From: a virus | DNA length: 26,197 nt | Reading direction: 5' to 3' (one strand) | IMG/VR virus record: IMGVR_UViG_3300017739_000089 | Coordinates: 1 to 26,197 of that record | In this document: positions 8,630 to 26,196 of the stretch, one piece after another | Numbering within the stretch: position 1 is the first letter of the stretch | How the letters are laid out: each line of letters begins with the position of its first letter | Made by a program: the position numbers and the translations under genes | The notes under the pieces: model-generated | Databases searched by the model: none | Seen by the model: the letters and a program-made list of their open reading frames with translations, nothing else | Told to the model about the DNA's origin: nothing

Positions 8630-9184
8630 ATGGCATCATTTCTTGAAGCACCAATACCGGGACAGTCTCTGACAGATGAACCTAAGAACTGGCCTTGGGA
8701 GAATCCACCTGAGATGGTTGATCCTGATGAAGTAACTAAATATTACATCAATAGATTAGCTGATGAAGAGGTTATGGATGATCTGTCTGTGCTCTTTGGT
8801 GGTGACATGCCTGTAGCTCCCTTTGTTAAAACGCTAATGACTACAGGTGTTATGAACGGACTGCACAGTGTGGATGTAAGCTTGATTGTAGCTCCTGTCA
8901 TACACGAGTTCATCAAAGCATCGATGACTACATATGGCATAGAAGTAAGAGATGACATTGAAGACCCTGAAGAGGCACTCAAAGATCGTGAGAAAAAACG
9001 ATTAGCACTAGCTATAGAGTTAGCTGTAGCAGATGCTAAGGGTGAAGAGGGTGATGTAGGTATGGACTTGTTGAAGACATTACAAGGTACTTTGGAAGAA
9101 GAAACAGATGATGTGCCACAGCAAGAAGAAATGGAAGTAAGCGAAATGTCTGAACCCCAAGGCTTGATGGCAAGAGGAGCTTAG
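8630..9184 (+). CDS. Conserved marine phage virion protein, function unknown
   Basis: A 184-residue acidic protein. It opens with MASFLEAPIPGQSLTDEP and a Trp/Pro-rich stretch (KNWPWENPPEMVDPDE), then a helical core (about residues 35-110, containing FVKTLMTTGVMNGLHSVDVS) and an acidic Glu-rich tail. No membrane segment survives scrutiny; the core is only mildly hydrophobic. It resembles a family that recurs in marine podoviruses beside internal virion genes, so I call it structural or a chaperone for that block, with no known activity. It starts 11 bases after the membrane protein and ends 3 bases before the 631-residue gene. Confidence 0.75.
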   Translation: MASFLEAPIPGQSLTDEPKNWPWENPPEMVDPDEVTKYYINRLADEEVMDDLSVLFGGDMPVAPFVKTLMTTGVMNGLHSVDVSLIVAPVIHEFIKASMTTYGIEVRDDIEDPEEALKDREKKRLALAIELAVADAKGEEGDVGMDLLKTLQGTLEEETDDVPQQEEMEVSEMSEPQGLMARGA

Positions 9185-17763: not shown

Positions 17764-18116
17764 CTCTTATCGCCACTGCCCTTAATGGTTCCTCTCTCCA
17801 TACGACTGTGAAGTTTGTCTAAGTTGCACCTGGCTATGTATCCCATGTCAAAGTTTAAGTCACGACATAAAGCTGCAATGTACCACAGGCAGTCACCTAC
17901 CTCTGCAGCTACATCTTCCCTTTTAAAATTTCCATCCCTTAACATCTTCTTTACTTTGTTGGCTACTTCACCTGCCTCACCTGCGAGTCCTAGCGCAGGG
18001 TAAACTATCTTGTGTTCATCAGGATATATAGCAGTCTTACGTGCCTCTATCTGATAATCACCGAATGTCATTTCATACATATCTTTCCAAGCATTTATGT
18101 CATCTGCTGTTATCAT
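17760..18116 (-). CDS. MazG-like nucleoside triphosphate pyrophosphohydrolase
   Basis: A 118-residue all-helical protein of the MazG/dUTPase-like NTP pyrophosphatase fold. The metal-binding set is visible: E47 and E50 in LAGEAGE, then E72 and D75 in AAEVGDCLWYIAALC. I choose the ATG at 18116, not the in-frame TTG at 18134, because it overlaps the upstream stop as ATGA and has GGAG 8 bases before it. Such enzymes hydrolyse dNTPs or other NTPs to monophosphates; phage versions have been proposed to cleanse nucleotide pools or lower alarmone levels. It is clustered with DUF3310 and the ribonucleotide reductase. The substrate cannot be told from sequence. Confidence 0.9.
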   Translation of the reverse strand: MITADDINAWKDMYEMTFGDYQIEARKTAIYPDEHKIVYPALGLAGEAGEVANKVKKMLRDGNFKREDVAAEVGDCLWYIAALCRDLNFDMGYIARCNLDKLHSRMERGTIKGSGDKR

Positions 18117-18379
18117 TTGTGCATCTCCATCCAACGTCTTTCTAGTCTGTCAAGATACCACTTTGCTTTTCTTATATCTTCTAATCCATTCTTGTATTCA
18201 TGCCGCCACATATACTTCAATACATTAGCAGCGTGTGGCGCTGTAGCTCCTGACATATTCTCTGTCATTGCTTCTATAGCCTCAATGCATTCTATACCAC
18301 TGTGATTGTAGTGAACTGGATTGTTTACTTGATCGTGATCTAAAGTTGTATCTCCAGTTAATGTTATTGTATCTATCAT
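18113..18379 (-). CDS. DUF3310 family protein (SaV-like)
   Basis: An 88-residue protein whose pattern is plain: VNNPVHYNHSGIECIEAIEA, then NVLKYMWRHEYKNGLEDIRK and AKWYLDRLERR. This is the DUF3310 domain of many phages, sometimes labelled a nucleotide kinase although proof is thin. I place the start at 18379, where ATGA overlaps the upstream stop and AAGGGA precedes it; an upstream ATG at 18403 would add eight basic residues but has no ribosome site. The gene ends in another ATGA overlap with the MazG-like gene. Its partners suggest a role in nucleotide supply, but the reaction is not established. Confidence 0.88.
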   Translation of the reverse strand: MIDTITLTGDTTLDHDQVNNPVHYNHSGIECIEAIEAMTENMSGATAPHAANVLKYMWRHEYKNGLEDIRKAKWYLDRLERRWMEMHK

Positions 18380-18714
18380 GCGCTTCCCTTTGTCTTTGTC
18401 CATTTATTAAGTGTATACACATTACCCTCTCTTGTTACAACAGGTTTATCTTCTTCCTCTTCTTCCAGAGTTACGAGATAATCTCTATGTTCTTTAACTA
18501 ATTTATAAATATCTGGATGCTCATTTGCTATATCTAAAAATGCTGACATCATAGTTGCTACATCTACTATACCGTTGATGATAGGGTCAGGTAAGTTGTG
18601 TTCAGGTGATATTGCTATCGACACATTTGTTTCACCTTCCCAACTACCATCATCCTTGTAATCTACTGGGCTTATAACTATTGCTATTTCATCATTGTCT
18701 AAGTCGTGACCCAT
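18376..18714 (-). CDS. Conserved hypothetical phage protein, 112 residues
   Basis: The ATG overlaps the endonuclease I stop by one base and has AAAGGAAAG upstream. The protein is acidic: a beta-rich first half (EIAIVISPVDYKDDG, then ETNVSIAIS), a helical middle (INGIVDVATMMSAFLDIANEHPDIYKL, residues about 45-73), a Glu run (EEEEED) and a short basic end. No motif points to an enzyme. It lies between the Holliday-junction nuclease and the nucleotide genes. Function unknown. Confidence 0.75.
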   Translation of the reverse strand: MGHDLDNDEIAIVISPVDYKDDGSWEGETNVSIAISPEHNLPDPIINGIVDVATMMSAFLDIANEHPDIYKLVKEHRDYLVTLEEEEEDKPVVTREGNVYTLNKWTKTKGSA

Positions 18715-19145
18715 TAGTCTTTCCTTTTTGTTTTTAATTCTATCTTCTTAACTGTGATCTCTTTACCTTTTTCTTTCAGCCAATCTTCAGGTATCACACG
18801 ATGCGCCCACTGAAACTTGTGCTGATCACACCAATGACAATACCTAGACTTAGCACCCTTGTATAGCTTGGCGTTTGCGTTACTGAATACAAACCGTATG
18901 TCTAACTCAGGATGTTGTCTCTGTATCTCAGAGTGTTTACGTCTGTCAGCACTATCAAAAATACCTTTAGTCTCAATAATAATACCGTTATCTAACACAA
19001 AGTCTGGTGTGTAGGTGCGGTAGCGTAAGTCTTCCCACTCAACCTTTAGTACTTCGTATCTGACTTTTTTTTGTGTCTTACGCAAGTACGCAGCAACCTC
19101 TTTCTCTAGGCCACTGCGATACCTACCTTTAATGTGTCTCCGCAT
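18714..19145 (-). CDS. T7-type endonuclease I (Holliday junction resolvase)
   Basis: A 143-residue nuclease that should cut four-way junctions and branched replication intermediates. The active site matches phage T7 gp3: a Glu in RSGLEKE (E14), D48 in YTPDFVLDNG, and E58-x-K60 in IIIETKG. The spacing D48-E58-K60 is the same as D55-E65-K67 of T7. A downstream YCHWCDQHKFQWAHRVIPEDWL block (read here as YCHWC near residue 102, then the AHRVIPEDWL end) may add a small metal site. T7 gp3 is 149 residues, so the length is normal. The start overlaps the Cas4-like gene by 17 bases. It would resolve phage recombination products and help break down host DNA. Confidence 0.92.
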   Translation of the reverse strand: MRRHIKGRYRSGLEKEVAAYLRKTQKKVRYEVLKVEWEDLRYRTYTPDFVLDNGIIIETKGIFDSADRRKHSEIQRQHPELDIRFVFSNANAKLYKGAKSRYCHWCDQHKFQWAHRVIPEDWLKEKGKEITVKKIELKTKRKD

Positions 19146-20912: not shown

Positions 20913-22961
20913 CTAAACGTCCACTGTGTCAAGCCAATTGTTTCCTATTTTGGCTTCTAATAATAGAGGCACATTCATTTCTACATCGTATGCGTCTTTT
21001 ATGACACAGTTGAGATTAGCATTTATAGTATCCACAATAGTCAATACTTTTTTCACTTCATCAGGGTGTACATCTATCACCATAGAGTCGTGTACTGTAT
21101 TGACTAAACATGACTGTAAAGGCTCAAGCAATCGCTCAAACTCTAGCAGCACCACAGGTACGATGTCACCTGTAGCAAATCCTTGGACAGGGTAGTTCTT
21201 TATCATAGTGAAGTGTGACACGCTACCATTACTCCTACGAGTTACATCAGGAAATGCGTACTGTCTGCCACTCACGTTAGTGATCTTGAGAAACCTCATA
21301 GCTTCATCACCTAGCTTCTTGTGCCACTTAGCTACGCCTTTGTATTTCTCATGAAAGTGTTCGTAGTATGCAGCTACAGGCTTAGGTCTACCATATCCAG
21401 TAGCACCGAAGAGAGGGGCGAATGTATGCTCCTTTGCTGCCTGACGCTCTGTAGGCTGTCCTGCATCACTGATAACCTTTGCTGTGTAGGAGTGCACATC
21501 AAACCCTGTATCAATCTCCTGCATGGCTGTACTGTCCTGTGAGAGGAATGCAGCAACTCTAAACTCCAACTGTGCAAAGTCACACTCACATATCTGTCCA
21601 CCTTCCCATCTTGATATGAACACACGTTTTACTGGAAATGTTCCTCCTCTTGGCATGTTTTGCATGTTGGGATTGCGTCCAGAAAATCTACCTGTACTGG
21701 TAACACTTTGGGTAAGGTTGACGTGAAGGATTCCGTTGGGCTTGGTGAATATTTCGATACCATCCACGAAGCTACTAAGGTAACTGCTGATAGCAGAGAG
21801 GCGCTTAAGATCAGTAAGAAAATCAAGAGCAGACTCCATACCGTTGCTTGTAGCGGTAGCCATAAGACTTTCAAGGTTGCCCTTACTAGTACTGAAACCA
21901 TTTGCACTTATCCATTTCTTGCTTGGTGCAGAGAAACACAGCCCTGCTACTTGTTTTGTTTGTGTTAGAAGATAGCCTTTACCCTCACACTTCTTACATA
22001 TATTTGGTATCTTGTATAGCGTACCGTCTTTTCTTGTCTTCCAAACTTTTCCTCCACCATTACAGTTGGTACAAGTAGATGCTTTAGTCTTTCTAATGAT
22101 TGAACTGTTTGCTTCTATAGCTTCCCTAAACTCTTGCTGTGTCTCAGTGTAGTCAAACAAGTCAGCCCATTCTTTCTTGTTGTGAACACGTCTACTGAAT
22201 ATGACTTGAGATGCTTGCTCAGGACTGTTGAGGTTGATAGGTGTGTCACCCATAAGGTCACGAGTCTTGCGCTGCAGCCTGTCTTCTATCTCAGCTTTCT
22301 CTTTCTCAAACTCTATTCGGACTTGCTGAAGGGCGGTTCTGTCCACACGGATTCCTGACATATACATTCTGGTGAGGGCTTTACAGGTGCGGAAGGTAAT
22401 GTCTCTGACATTATGTAAGGACTCTGCTTCTGGCTTGGCGTAGTCTTGTTCCAAGGCAAAGAACAACTCACGAGTAATGTCGAGGTCACTCCTAAGATAA
22501 AAAAGAAGCTCTTGTAAAGGTATCTCATTGGTGTTGTATCCTTTCTTGTAATACTCTTTGAGAGTGTCTTGCTTCTGGTAGTTTAGATTCCTACGTTCAG
22601 CACAAGCTTCTAAACTTATAGGTTCTTTCTGTCCACGCTGCAGTAGATACTCAGCTAACATCGTGTCATAGATGTCACCGTCATACTTGAAGCCCGACTC
22701 CCATAACCACATCAAGTCATGCTGTGCATTGTGCATGATCAGTAATGTTGTATGGTCTAGTAGGATCTGTATATTTCTAGCTCTTGATCCACCTACGTCC
22801 TGATCCTCTTTGTGATTCAGCGTAAACAAGTGTGTCTCTTCTACGTTATCTACATTCTGCACACCTACTTGAACAAGCTCAAGTCCAGGCTCGAATGGAT
22901 CAAGAATGTTTTTCTTCTCTCGTTTAGTTATGGTGTTTTCTACATCAAGTACAAGTCTCAT
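20913..22961 (-). CDS. Family A DNA polymerase with inserted DnaJ-type half zinc finger
   Basis: A 682-residue replicative polymerase. Exonuclease motifs: D6-x-E8 (LDVEN), N78 and D82 (HNAQHDLMWLW), Y155-x3-D159 (YLRSD). Residues 297-328 hold C297-x2-C300-x-G-x-G and C322-x2-C325-x-G-x-G, half of a DnaJ zinc-binding domain, placed between the exonuclease and polymerase parts. Polymerase motifs: TGRFSG (residues 423-428), motif A with D461 in CDFAQLEFR, the O helix R506-x3-K510-x3-F514-x3-F518-G, and motif C HD at 624-625. F514 aligns with E. coli Phe762; F518 replaces the usual Tyr766. This architecture is known from SAR116 phage HMO-2011 and relatives. The start overlaps the helicase stop as ATGA. 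Confidence 0.95.
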   Translation of the reverse strand: MRLVLDVENTITKREKKNILDPFEPGLELVQVGVQNVDNVEETHLFTLNHKEDQDVGGSRARNIQILLDHTTLLIMHNAQHDLMWLWESGFKYDGDIYDTMLAEYLLQRGQKEPISLEACAERRNLNYQKQDTLKEYYKKGYNTNEIPLQELLFYLRSDLDITRELFFALEQDYAKPEAESLHNVRDITFRTCKALTRMYMSGIRVDRTALQQVRIEFEKEKAEIEDRLQRKTRDLMGDTPINLNSPEQASQVIFSRRVHNKKEWADLFDYTETQQEFREAIEANSSIIRKTKASTCTNCNGGGKVWKTRKDGTLYKIPNICKKCEGKGYLLTQTKQVAGLCFSAPSKKWISANGFSTSKGNLESLMATATSNGMESALDFLTDLKRLSAISSYLSSFVDGIEIFTKPNGILHVNLTQSVTSTGRFSGRNPNMQNMPRGGTFPVKRVFISRWEGGQICECDFAQLEFRVAAFLSQDSTAMQEIDTGFDVHSYTAKVISDAGQPTERQAAKEHTFAPLFGATGYGRPKPVAAYYEHFHEKYKGVAKWHKKLGDEAMRFLKITNVSGRQYAFPDVTRRSNGSVSHFTMIKNYPVQGFATGDIVPVVLLEFERLLEPLQSCLVNTVHDSMVIDVHPDEVKKVLTIVDTINANLNCVIKDAYDVEMNVPLLLEAKIGNNWLDTVDV

Positions 22962-24187
22962 GCTAAGTACTGGCTCCTGTCTCCATCTAACTCACAGTGA
23001 ATAGTACCATGCCATCCACCCTTGAGTTTGTTCTTTGCTATACAAAGATGTCTCTGATTAGTTTCATCTTCGTCTTGCCCCTCTACTACTTTGTTTTTTG
23101 ATATGAGTATCATCAAGTCAGCCTCTGCTGCTTTACCAGTACGGCTACCCTCAAGCATTGATTGATCAGGATGCACCAATCCCTCTGCTGCTGCACTCAA
23201 CTGTGACATCCATATGATTGCACACTTGTGTTCTTTGGATATGTTACGTGCATGTATGGCTGCTTCTTTGAGATAGATGTCCGACTTGTCACTTGTCTTG
23301 GACGCAAACTTGTCACCCATATCAAGCACTACAATGTCAGGCTCGTATGCCTTGATGATAGCTTCAACCCATGCCATGTCTTTACCTGTGCTGTCTTTGA
23401 TGAAAACGTTCTTCTCTACTGGATCATAACGTAGTGCAGCCACCGCCATGTTAGTCTTGACTTCATCCATGCTCATACTTGTAGCAGCACTCAGGTATCT
23501 TGCACCTACACGCTCATAACTTTCTTCGTTACACAGAACCATACACTTAGCACCCTGTGATGCAAACCCATCAGGTGCAGCTATTGTACTAGCATGAAAG
23601 CTAGTCTTACCTGTATTAGGTCTAGCACCTACAACAACTAAGTGTCCTGCGCTAATGCCCTCTGTCCTACGTTTAAGTGTAGGTATGTTCCACTTCCATT
23701 GTGACTGTATGTCATTGGCTTTTAATAATGTATCGATACTTGTATCATCCCACTCTACCTTGAGGTTGGGTAGGAAATCATCTTGATAATTACTCAGTAT
23801 ATTTCTCAAGGGTTCGAGGCTAGACTGTGATCCGTTAACGTAGTCGAATCCAAGGTTAGCAATCTCTTCACCCACTACCTGCTGAAACAGCTTAGACAAT
23901 ACATCATCAGCTATATCTGTAGACAGTGGCTTTTCTCGTGCAACCTTTTGGAACAACTCACTAAAGACTAGCTTGTTAGCTGTAGTCATACTGGTGTTGT
24001 TAACAAAGAATAAAGCTTCTAACTCCGTAGGAGTAATACTCTTACCATACGTATCCATAGCGTAATCAAGCGTCTGCTTAATCTTACGTGCATCTTTACT
24101 AAATATCTTGTCGGGGCAACGTATGCCTTTATGATTCTCGTAAAAATCTTTGTCCAACATAGTACGGATTAGTGCTAGTTCCTGCAT
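22958..24187 (-). CDS. DnaB-like replicative DNA helicase
   Basis: A 409-residue RecA-fold helicase that should unwind the phage fork ahead of the polymerase. The N-terminal 140 residues are helical, as in the DnaB N-domain. The ATPase has Walker A at residues 187-196 (GARPNTGKTS, Lys194), a catalytic Glu near 221 (CNEES), Walker B at 284-289 (DIVVLD) and the sensor MSQL near 327-330. KNKLKGGWHG (385-394) is in the place of the arginine-finger segment. I prefer the ATG at 24187 over the in-frame TTG at 24205, since AGAGGAG stands six bases before it. Unlike T7 gp4 the primase is a separate gene (25086-25874). The stop overlaps the polymerase start by four bases. Confidence 0.93.
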   Translation of the reverse strand: MQELALIRTMLDKDFYENHKGIRCPDKIFSKDARKIKQTLDYAMDTYGKSITPTELEALFFVNNTSMTTANKLVFSELFQKVAREKPLSTDIADDVLSKLFQQVVGEEIANLGFDYVNGSQSSLEPLRNILSNYQDDFLPNLKVEWDDTSIDTLLKANDIQSQWKWNIPTLKRRTEGISAGHLVVVGARPNTGKTSFHASTIAAPDGFASQGAKCMVLCNEESYERVGARYLSAATSMSMDEVKTNMAVAALRYDPVEKNVFIKDSTGKDMAWVEAIIKAYEPDIVVLDMGDKFASKTSDKSDIYLKEAAIHARNISKEHKCAIIWMSQLSAAAEGLVHPDQSMLEGSRTGKAAEADLMILISKNKVVEGQDEDETNQRHLCIAKNKLKGGWHGTIHCELDGDRSQYLA

Positions 24188-24201: not shown

Positions 24202-24366
24202 TCAATCAAAACTTTTCCCCTTGTTGTATACCTTATCTAACTCCTTATCAAAAGCTTTGTCTGAAGCATACCTCTTACATGCTTCTAACACTTCATCTAC
24301 TGTCAAATCAACGTAAACCTTACCTAATGGTACACGTTCATCTATTATTGCTGTCTTCTTTGGCAT
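24202..24366 (-). CDS. Small hypothetical protein, 54 residues
   Basis: A short frame with AAGGAG 7 bases before its ATG, overlapping the end of the previous small gene by 29 bases and ending 14 bases before the helicase start. The product is soluble and charged: a basic start (MPKKTAIIDERVPLGKVYVD), then helix LTVDEVLEACKRYASDKAF and a basic, Lys-rich end. It has one Cys. A clean ribosome site and exact packing before the helicase support it as real. No family recognised; a helicase accessory or a host-takeover peptide are possible. Confidence 0.7.
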   Translation of the reverse strand: MPKKTAIIDERVPLGKVYVDLTVDEVLEACKRYASDKAFDKELDKVYNKGKSFD

Positions 24367-24535
24367 TAGTATCTCCTTGTATACAAGTTAGCCTTACTCC
24401 CACTCTACTCTCTGGTGTCATTGAATAGTATAACATATCATAATTATTGAAACATTGATACATATCATCATACGTTCCTATCTTTCTGACTTCTGGCTCA
24501 CCATTGAACAACCATATGAATACTAACGTCCACAT
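24338..24535 (-). CDS. Small hydrophobic-start protein with two cysteines
   Basis: A 65-residue protein. Its ATG overlaps the previous stop by one base (TGATG). Residues 1-10 (MWTLVFIWLF) are strongly hydrophobic, but the stretch is short for a full membrane helix or a signal peptide. Cys28 follows a TYDDMYQ helix and Cys51 follows a strand (RVGVRLT); the tail is polar. This plan is like that of the product at 14834-15025, suggesting a small family. The two might be folded outside the cytoplasm with a disulfide. Function unknown. Confidence 0.65.
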   Translation of the reverse strand: MWTLVFIWLFNGEPEVRKIGTYDDMYQCFNNYDMLYYSMTPESRVGVRLTCIQGDTNAKEDSNNR

Positions 24536-24684
24536 CAGAACATCGGATTCATTAAATCAAATCTTTCGTACCAACTGCTACCCTCTAAGGCTAACCACAT
24601 CAGTACAGGCACACCTAATATGAATATTGCACATACTAGGAATGCCCACCCTAAACCTTTTGTTGTACAGTAATGTTCAGACAT
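24535..24684 (-). CDS. Single-helix membrane micro-protein, 49 residues
   Basis: A 49-residue frame starting with AGGAAGAG upstream and overlapping the preceding gene by 8 bases; its stop is shared with the next ATG. Residues about 11-33 (LGWAFLVCAIFILGVPVLMWLAL) form a clear membrane helix; the outside parts are short, with Cys6 near the N-terminus and a Trp/Tyr/Phe-rich end. Packing with neighbours on both sides and a good ribosome site argue that it is expressed. No family recognised; the location beside the other tiny hydrophobic genes suggests they act together at the inner membrane. Confidence 0.7.
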   Translation of the reverse strand: MSEHYCTTKGLGWAFLVCAIFILGVPVLMWLALEGSSWYERFDLMNPMF

Positions 24685-24892
24685 AACTCTTCCTGTGCTT
24701 TTGAGGAAAACCCTCTTTATTCCATCCTTTACTAACTTGTTCTGCTGCCCACGAGTAGTTTACATTCCAATGTCTAGCAGCGTCAGCTATGCTTTTGAAG
24801 TCCTTACCGTGTAAGCGACAAGCTTTACCTTTCTGCTGTTGCGTTGGCTCTACCTTGATACGGATATGGCAGGGTACATTCTTTGGTTGCAT
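24677..24892 (-). CDS. Small basic protein, possible helix-turn-helix
   Basis: A 71-residue basic protein whose ATG overlaps the upstream stop by one base, with AGGAG about 8 bases before it. It has two Cys residues (8 and 25) and, at about residues 32-56, a stretch FKSIADAARHWNVNYSWAAEQV that reads like two short helices with a turn, as in DNA-binding proteins or the helical parts of homing-endonuclease-associated domains (SIADAARHW is a common form there). A Lys/Arg-rich C-terminus follows. It could be a small DNA-binding regulator. The fold is inferred from pattern only. Confidence 0.65.
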   Translation of the reverse strand: MQPKNVPCHIRIKVEPTQQQKGKACRLHGKDFKSIADAARHWNVNYSWAAEQVSKGWNKEGFPQKHRKSYV

Positions 24893-25086
24893 TACTTGTC
24901 TCCTATATTTCTTGGTGCATATACTTCACCGTTGTATTGGCTACCTGTTTCAGTATCTGCTCCAAAGTTAAAGTACGCTAGTATAACTAGCAGTGCCATT
25001 ATCCAGTAGAATGTAACCTTCACCCACTTGATAAAACCTTCGTATGTTTGCTTCGCTTCTAGCTCTGCTGCTTCTCTTGGTTGCAT
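24892..25086 (-). CDS. Small membrane protein with one helix
   Basis: A 64-residue protein starting at TAATG after the primase stop, with AGAGGAGAT upstream. A charged N-terminal helix (REAAELEAKQTYEGFIKW) leads to one membrane segment (about 22-42, VKVTFYWIMALLVILAYF) and a polar C-terminus with Gly and Asn. By the positive-inside rule the Lys-bearing N-terminus should face the cytoplasm. It is the first of five tiny genes between primase and helicase. No family recognised. Confidence 0.7.
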   Translation of the reverse strand: MQPREAAELEAKQTYEGFIKWVKVTFYWIMALLVILAYFNFGADTETGSQYNGEVYAPRNIGDK

Positions 25087-25874
25087 TAAACTATCTCCTC
25101 TAGTTTCTTTATGTCTGCATCTACTTTATATTTAATATCATCATAGAGTCTTAACGCTATAGTTTCTAACCCTGTGTAAGCCTCTATCTCTCTCTTGTAC
25201 TCTAGTGTTTTATATGCAGCGTCAGGGTCTAGTGCTACAATAACCTTATAAAAATTATCTAAGTGTTGCATATTAGATACACTGAATGACGTACCCAGTA
25301 TAGCCAAACCTGTCAGTCCAGGAAATAGTTTAGCTGCTACGGTAGCACTGATAACATCCTCAACTACTATCACGACACCATTAGGTTTACCTACGACACG
25401 AGTGAATACAGTAGGTGTCCTGTCGTAACGCCTCCACTTAACCTGTCCTGCATAGGACGTGCATCTACCTATTGCTCCTACAAGTCTGCCTTTGTCATAG
25501 ATAGGAAAGACTACTCGTGAATCCATTACGTCATACATCAAGTCCTCCCCATACAAGCCCCACCTTCCAATGAATCTTTCAAACTGCTTATGCTCTACAG
25601 TAGGCTTGACTATATACTCAGGCCAAGTAAATAACTCATGCTCCGACTCAGGCTCTTCATACTGGTTAAGCCTACGTTGTATCTCTTGTGCTGTCATACC
25701 TGAAGACACAACACCTTTAACTCTACAGTCAAGCTTGTAACAGTTGTAAAGCAAAGCACTACCATCTCGTGTAGCAGTGAATGTGTTCTTACCTCTACAC
25801 ACAGGGCAGTCACCTCTATGTTTGTAATCTTCTTTTAGATCAAGGGTTTCTAGGTAGTTCTTAATGTTGTTCAT
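25086..25874 (-). CDS. DNA primase with zinc finger and Toprim domain
   Basis: A 262-residue protein. The N-terminal zinc site is C23-x2-C26 (GDCPVCRGK) with C45 and C50 (YNCYKLDC), as in the T7 gp4 primase half. A linker follows, then the Toprim fold: E172 in VIVVEDVISATVAA and the D216-x-D218 pair in VALDPDAA, which bind the metal ions for RNA primer synthesis. A conserved strand (SRVVFPIYDKGRLVGAIGR, about 119-137) lies before it. There is no helicase half; the DnaB-like gene at 22958-24187 must supply that. GGAGGAG stands five bases before the ATG, and the gene overlaps the integrase by 14 bases. It would make primers on lagging-strand template in phage DNA replication. Confidence 0.93.
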   Translation of the reverse strand: MNNIKNYLETLDLKEDYKHRGDCPVCRGKNTFTATRDGSALLYNCYKLDCRVKGVVSSGMTAQEIQRRLNQYEEPESEHELFTWPEYIVKPTVEHKQFERFIGRWGLYGEDLMYDVMDSRVVFPIYDKGRLVGAIGRCTSYAGQVKWRRYDRTPTVFTRVVGKPNGVVIVVEDVISATVAAKLFPGLTGLAILGTSFSVSNMQHLDNFYKVIVALDPDAAYKTLEYKREIEAYTGLETIALRLYDDIKYKVDADIKKLEEIV

Positions 25875-26196
25875 CTCTGCTCCTCCGCTTATTCAATGCA
25901 TTACTTGCACCACTAAATGTGTTGACTAGGTAAGGCTTGACTGACTCAGGATTCACATGCCCTGTTACTTGCATCAACTCAAGAGTCTCAACACCTGCCT
26001 CCACCATCTCAGTAATTGCAGTCCTACGTAGATCCATAGCTGTCAGTTTCTTTGGTAGTCCTGCAGCTTCCTTAACTTCATTGATTGCATCATCGATGTG
26101 GTCAATAGCGTATGGCACATATGCCCCTGCCACTGGTGTAGTCTTGGGTGCTACATAGTCTTGAAATCCAAAGTCCTGACTCTGTTGCCTGAGCAT
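25861..26196 (-). CDS. Tyrosine recombinase / integrase, C-terminal part (reaches window edge)
   Basis: The last 111 residues of a tyrosine recombinase. The ATG at 26194-26196 is at the window border and is probably internal; the catalytic domain's first Arg box lies outside. Visible catalytic residues are R57 in LTAMDLRRTAIT, H80 in VTGHVN and the nucleophile Tyr89 in VKPYLVNT. In most family members the R57 box reads HxLR; here the His is replaced by Met54. The segment between R57 and H80 (TEMVEAGVETLELMQ) is the usual length. It would cut and join DNA at an attachment site. The adjacent primase gene overlaps it by 14 bases, so the integrase is first in view of the minus-strand operon. No attachment site can be seen. 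Confidence 0.85.
   Translation of the reverse strand: MLRQQSQDFGFQDYVAPKTTPVAGAYVPYAIDHIDDAINEVKEAAGLPKKLTAMDLRRTAITEMVEAGVETLELMQVTGHVNPESVKPYLVNTFSGASNALNKRRSRDEQH
25880..25886 (-). promoter_or_regulatory. Strong ribosome binding site for primase
   Basis: GGAGGAG on the minus strand, five bases before the primase ATG and located inside the integrase coding sequence. It suggests the primase is translated independently and well, not only by coupling to the integrase. Confidence 0.7.

Follow-up and report, generated by a model that had tools for sequence, protein, structure and literature searches.

We analysed a linear virus record of 26,197 bases (IMG/VR IMGVR_UViG_3300017739_000089), hereafter the window, in which the gap between a primase and a helicase gene is tiled by five ATG-started open reading frames on the minus strand, with products of 64, 71, 49, 65 and 54 residues (g64, g71, g49, g65 and g54). 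An ORF check of the window returned the coordinates, order and lengths claimed for them in a preliminary description of this DNA, as well as the overlapping or abutting layout, with 1-nt TAATG/TGATG overlaps, one 8-nt overlap and one 29-nt overlap. The features are as follows, with the number of loci and the dN/dS for each small gene.

25861-26196, tyrosine integrase, cut short by the end of the window (PF00589, above cut-off)
25086..25874, minus strand, TOPRIM DNA primase, upstream neighbour of the small genes (PHROG 47, E 2.5e-20)
25095..25099, minus strand, Shine-Dalgarno AGGAG of g64, within the primase gene
24892..25086, minus strand, g64, gene for a 64-aa CoxIV-like membrane protein (PF07835; 52 loci; dN/dS 0.23)
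24967..25053, minus strand, CoxIV-like segment of g64, residues 12-40, with a T-Y-x-G-F-I-K motif and the transmembrane helix
24895..24960, minus strand, tail of g64, residues 43-64, YNGxVYxPxN, not in CoxIV, predicted to be periplasmic on positive-inside grounds
24900..24904, minus strand, Shine-Dalgarno AGGAG of g71, within g64
24677..24892, minus strand, g71, 71-aa basic protein, hairpin plus helix-turn-helix-like (65 loci; dN/dS 0.12)
24535..24684, minus strand, g49, 49-aa single-helix membrane protein (43 loci; dN/dS 0.26)
24338..24535, minus strand, g65, 65-aa soluble two-cysteine beta-beta-alpha-beta protein (22 loci; dN/dS 0.12)
24202..24366, minus strand, g54, 54-aa soluble Lys-rich protein (64 loci including CRP-2; dN/dS 0.14)
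22958..24187, minus strand, DnaB-type helicase, downstream neighbour of the small genes (PF03796 and PHROG 19)

The helicase most likely starts at the ATG at 24187, behind GAGGAG, rather than at the listed TTG at 24205, so that it no longer overlaps g54. Further down on the same strand lie genes for a DUF3310 protein and a phage endonuclease I (18113-18403 and 18714-19145; Pfam, above cut-off).

By scanning IMG/VR with the primase we obtained 79 loci, in which the small ORFs were recovered by tblastn and then re-called. Each of the five genes has an intact, ATG-started frame in the number of loci given above (counts that include the window and, for g65 and g54, also CRP-2), and no frame was broken where the gene was found. 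Pooled Nei-Gojobori dN/dS ranges from 0.12 to 0.26 in frame, and is about 1 or more (0.98-2.7) in both shifted frames of all five genes. Frame-breaking changes free of selection, proposed beforehand as the observation that would speak against these genes, were thus looked for in the relatives and the frames proved intact. Also, of 5000 sequences generated with a first-order Markov model of these 885 bases, none reached four ATG-started ORFs of at least 49 aa on the minus strand, where the real sequence has five. Conservation, selection and the Markov null together rule out chance frames, and we regard it as virtually certain that the genes are real: all five are protein-coding and under purifying selection in about 60 IMG/VR relatives. 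A Shine-Dalgarno match precedes four of the five starts, the exception being g65. None of the five genes had a usable match in PHROGs or NCBIfam.

Judged by its sequence, the window phage is an HMO-2011-type (roseophage CRP-2-like) marine phage. This type is marked by a family A DNA polymerase with a partial DnaJ domain carrying two CXXCXGXG motifs (PMC6918029). The window polymerase (20913-22961) has both of them, CTNCNGGG and CKKCEGKG, in a DnaJ-like insert that matches PF00684 with an E value of 4e-5, below the cut-off of that model. The position of the integrase upstream of the replication genes, another HMO-2011-type feature, is likewise present. The nearest isolate records are those of roseophages CRP-2, CRP-603 and CRP-207, and the isolates closest to the window have Rhodobacteraceae hosts. 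CRP-2 and CRP-603 share with the window the order primase, small genes, helicase, polymerase and carry weak g65 homologues; however, their slot holds thymidylate synthase and different small genes, and they have no detectable g64, g71 or g49.

In the relatives the order of the small genes is constant while their membership varies, giving g64-g71-g49-g54, g64-g71-g54 or g71-g49-g65-g54. Further genes occur in the slot, namely an EndoVII-like HNH gene after the primase (13 loci), c56 before the helicase, and c60 replacing g65. Mapping these states on a primase tree of 58 genomes gave at least 10 changes for g64, which is missing from 11 of the genomes, 8 for g65, 7 for g49 and 6 for c56; these are minimum parsimony counts on one tree, in which gain and loss are indistinguishable. 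The expectation that this interval is a site of gain, loss and replacement is thereby borne out, with the EndoVII-like, 56-aa and 60-aa genes each present in some relatives and absent from others. The idea of an accessory cassette fits the variable slot and fails for the 54-aa and 71-aa genes, which are near-universal in the lineage.

The junctions suggest how such exchange may proceed. With or without g64, the primase ends in GAGGAGATAGT(T/A)TAATG and the next gene starts at that ATG, while the sequence following g71, AGGAAGAGTTATGTCT, runs into either g49 or g54. Gain and loss junctions thus join start to start and retain both the start signal and the gene coupling, and the common start regions probably let genes be exchanged without losing that coupling. 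The EndoVII-like gene, of about 148 aa, lies between the primase and g64 or g71 with the SD-TAATG junction kept (loci L014, L018, L019, L021, L033, L034 and others). In the window, g64 and g71 (starts at 25086 and 24892) both open with TAATGCAACCAA preceded by AGGAGA; this short direct repeat might be used to excise g64. On this view, the replication operon of an HMO-2011-type roseophage has a modular slot here, occupied by small genes that are coupled in translation.

One reading of the whole cassette, which we consider evenly balanced, is that its small genes are unrelated and without a shared function, and that it is simply a hot spot kept mobile by the AGGAGA...TAATG sequences at the gene starts. 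It draws on the equivalent junctions of relatives with and without a given gene, on the repeated state changes of g64, g65 and g49, and on the EndoVII-like gene, c56 and c60 as replacements. In other phages, however, g64-g71, often with g49, hold their order beside a different type of primase-helicase, a hint that joint movement of some members is not accidental. The hot-spot reading is about the cassette and does not conflict with the explanation that we favour below for g64 itself, under which the other four genes would be neighbours sharing the slot and its start signals and not parts of one machine.

Among those four, g71 follows the pattern CRLxGKxFxSxAxAAR...SWAxEQV. Three of nine members match Pfam NUMOD1 weakly (best E 0.008; the window protein is not among the matches listed), and the AlphaFold2 model, with a mean pLDDT of 64, is too weak to go beyond a hairpin and helix-turn-helix hint. 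A homologue is found in roseophage CRP-738 (gp04). The g49 product has one helix with the pattern KG...A...G.P...L.W and divergent homologues in other phage lineages, and a family search returned no match. In agreement with the two membrane products and the soluble Lys-rich peptide claimed for the cassette, the 64-aa and 49-aa products are membrane proteins with one helix each and the 54-aa product is soluble and Lys-rich; the short hydrophobic start ascribed to the 65-aa product was reinterpreted, since AlphaFold2 predicts there a beta strand of a soluble fold. The g65 model is confident (pLDDT 86; beta-beta-alpha-beta, with a strand at residues 2-10), which disfavours a signal peptide; the protein resembles many small phage proteins, and its model had no significant fold match in the PDB. 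In window-type phages (L335, L391 and others), a 57-aa two-cysteine gene with a layout like that of g65 (cys57) is located upstream of the primase.

The g54 gene directly precedes the helicase gene or is separated from it by a single gene, and its homologues in CRP-603 and CRP-2 are 64-68% identical. Because it is near-universal, helicase-adjacent and conserved in these isolates, g54 seems tied to replication more than to host attack, and a replication role is the more likely one. In the CRP-2 record (L001, about 8942-9145) its 67-aa homologue is annotated only as a 32-aa piece, gp26, one case in which a gene of this size was indeed missed, as had been anticipated.

The strongest lead to a function comes from g64. 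The window protein matches the Pfam family COX4_pro_2 (PF07835), subunit IV of the alphaproteobacterial aa3-type cytochrome c oxidase (CoxIV), with 23.3 bits against a cut-off of 22. Because the membrane helix makes up most of this match, we ran controls. All 11 divergent g64 members examined match PF07835 (E up to 1), and their other Pfam matches are isolated, found in single members and with E values of 0.056 or worse. We used the Paracoccus sequence to retrieve Rhodobacteraceae CoxIV loci and built an HMM from these; with it, all 33 close g64 variants scored, at about 17-28 bits, compared with a maximum of 15.0 bits in 20,000 shuffles preserving the composition of the N-terminal part, the helix and the tail, and with 9.2 for the best of the other ORFs of these viral loci. 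In the wider family many members score above the window protein, the top one reaching 33.7 and the lowest 11.0, inside the shuffle range. Aligning the g64 and CoxIV families with hhalign gave a score of 49.9; the highest among 300 column shuffles was 25.9.

Two further searches did not presuppose CoxIV. First, a g64 profile from the diverse alignment A13, run against 177,635 PDB sequences, ranked the five CoxIV sequences (1M56_D, 5WEH_D, 1QLE_D, 7ATE_D and 9FKS_j) as its top five, with E values of 0.011 to 0.27 that are weak singly; the narrow alignment A1 missed CoxIV in the PDB. Second, in 149 Rhodobacteraceae genomes, a family in which CoxIV is widespread, the 20 best matches of the g64 profile were all host CoxIV (E down to 1.1e-7). 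A genome scan with the narrow alignment found no g64 copies in bacterial genomes.

The match is gapless over about 30 residues and extends before and through the helix, as in host EKTFDGFIKW against phage KQTYEGFIKW. Both proteins have T-[FY]-x-x-F followed by a single transmembrane helix; the fuller T-F/Y-x-G-F form is present in the window g64, with the G changed to A in many relatives. In contrast, the HGxMDI N-terminus of the host protein is missing from the phage members, which match from position 18 of the 46 in the profile and begin instead with MxPxExAExEA. Host CoxIV, mostly 44-56 aa, ends a few residues past the helix, whereas the phage proteins, of about 61-71 aa, carry a tail of about 22 residues, and g64 is carried by phages, not by oxidase loci. 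By sequence, then, it is well supported that the motif and helix of g64 are homologous, or very closely convergent, to those of CoxIV, and we consider homology highly probable.

The tail residues Y, N, G, V, Y, P and N do not vary, even where identity to the window protein falls to 38-44%. Lys 20 and Lys 23 before the helix suggest an N-in/C-out orientation, which would put the tail in the periplasm. In some relatives the helix ends with a Cys in a lipobox-like context (LASC, LAWC, VFGC; L471, L474, L479, L462 and the CRP-9-type g64 genes), and these proteins may be lipidated there. A lipoprotein reading of the window g64 itself was rejected, as its helix, like that of its closest relatives, ends in LAYF, without a Cys. 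A similarity of the tail to actinohivin (E 1.6-1.8) was taken as chance.

The g64 family comprises at least 356 IMG/VR stretches and at least two replication types; it is not in PHROGs, is unnamed in NCBIfam, and is an undescribed phage family. Among isolates (50,697 records) there was no credible match, and the expression and host of g64 are presumptive. In other marine phages, the order cys57-g64-g71-g49, with a 60-aa zinc-ribbon-like gene between the last two, stands directly upstream of a fused primase-helicase whose nearest isolates, CRP-9 and CRP-13 (PMC8528129), are 71-78% identical in that enzyme. The uncultivated relatives of these two phages thus share the cassette, but the isolates themselves lack a g64 match and their replication genes are of another type than those of the window. 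The 60-aa protein has a CxxC...CxxC arrangement (L327:3212-3394), and its homologue in L329 matches PHROG 2816 (E 7e-9); cys57 lies directly before g64 in these fused primase-helicase phages.

To account for these observations, we propose that g64 would insert in the inner membrane N-in/C-out, that its CoxIV-like part would take or share the CoxIV site of the host aa3-type cytochrome c oxidase, and that the YNGxVYxPxN tail, at the periplasmic face, would, during infection, tune or block electron input, or else the assembly of the oxidase or its contacts in supercomplexes. Our reason for proposing a docking module with an effector is the way conservation is distributed, over a membrane part like that of CoxIV and a tail found only in the viruses. 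That g64 is such a host-subunit mimic, acting through its tail, is the explanation we favour, held tentatively and at somewhat less than even confidence, the docking and its effect being inferred from sequence features. We are more reserved about the general form of this proposal, in which a widespread marine phage family would have captured the CoxIV helix for docking and used a virus-specific periplasmic tail to control host respiration directly. Still, these phages, which are abundant in the ocean, may adjust the respiration of their hosts or block it. Resemblance to a host respiratory subunit fits the host takeover or metabolic steering suggested for this interval in the preliminary description; its suggestion of anti-defence or exclusion peptides found nothing in its favour, and a defence or anti-defence role was set aside, none of the five genes having a PADLOC match.

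The CoxIV-mimic reading has its limits: the similarity covers about 30 residues, mostly in the transmembrane helix, HGxMDI is missing, and no isolate carries g64. Absence from 11 of 58 genomes makes g64 dispensable in some settings. In Paracoccus the enzyme is little affected by deletion of CoxIV; replacement of CoxIV alone may therefore do little, and the tail would have to act. The same homology would also suit a g64 that is CoxIV-derived and supports respiration, an auxiliary metabolic gene stabilising or replacing the host subunit so that the oxidase runs on during the shut-off of host synthesis. These phages do have other host-derived metabolic genes (PMC9038755), but a strictly conserved 22-residue tail without a counterpart in host CoxIV is not needed for plain replacement, and we find this role unlikely, if worth keeping in view. 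Least probable, and in our judgement quite improbable, is an unrelated small phage membrane protein (for exclusion, pinholin-like, or anchoring a replication complex) in which helix and flank came to look like CoxIV by convergence. The shortness of the alignment and the missing CoxIV N-terminus would allow it, as would the position of g64 beside replication genes in every lineage and the lipobox-like Cys of some members (LASC, LAWC), which suggests that the membrane part mainly anchors the tail; yet neither sequence nor column shuffles ever reach the real scores, and CoxIV is the top match in both searches that did not presuppose it.

The papers on these phages that we consulted make no mention of cytochromes, and the list of metabolic genes in PMC9038755 contains none. 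A viral cbb3 oxidase subunit I has been reported from a metagenome (PMC3474794), a different protein from g64, and another paper discusses cellular sequences as contaminants of viromes (PMC3877843). If our favoured explanation of g64 as a CoxIV mimic is true, a phage version of a respiratory oxidase subunit would be a direct link between infection and oxygen consumption. It would also assign a function to a family that PHROGs lacks and NCBIfam leaves unnamed, and would provide a natural tool for probing the role of CoxIV in the oxidase, which is unclear. The photosystem genes of cyanophages are phage-encoded subunits of host energy complexes. Under this explanation, g64 would resemble them in that a virus has its own version of a host bioenergetic subunit; it would differ in that its target would be a respiratory oxidase of heterotrophic roseobacters, at the level of an accessory subunit, and in that the protein is small and has an extension specific to the virus.
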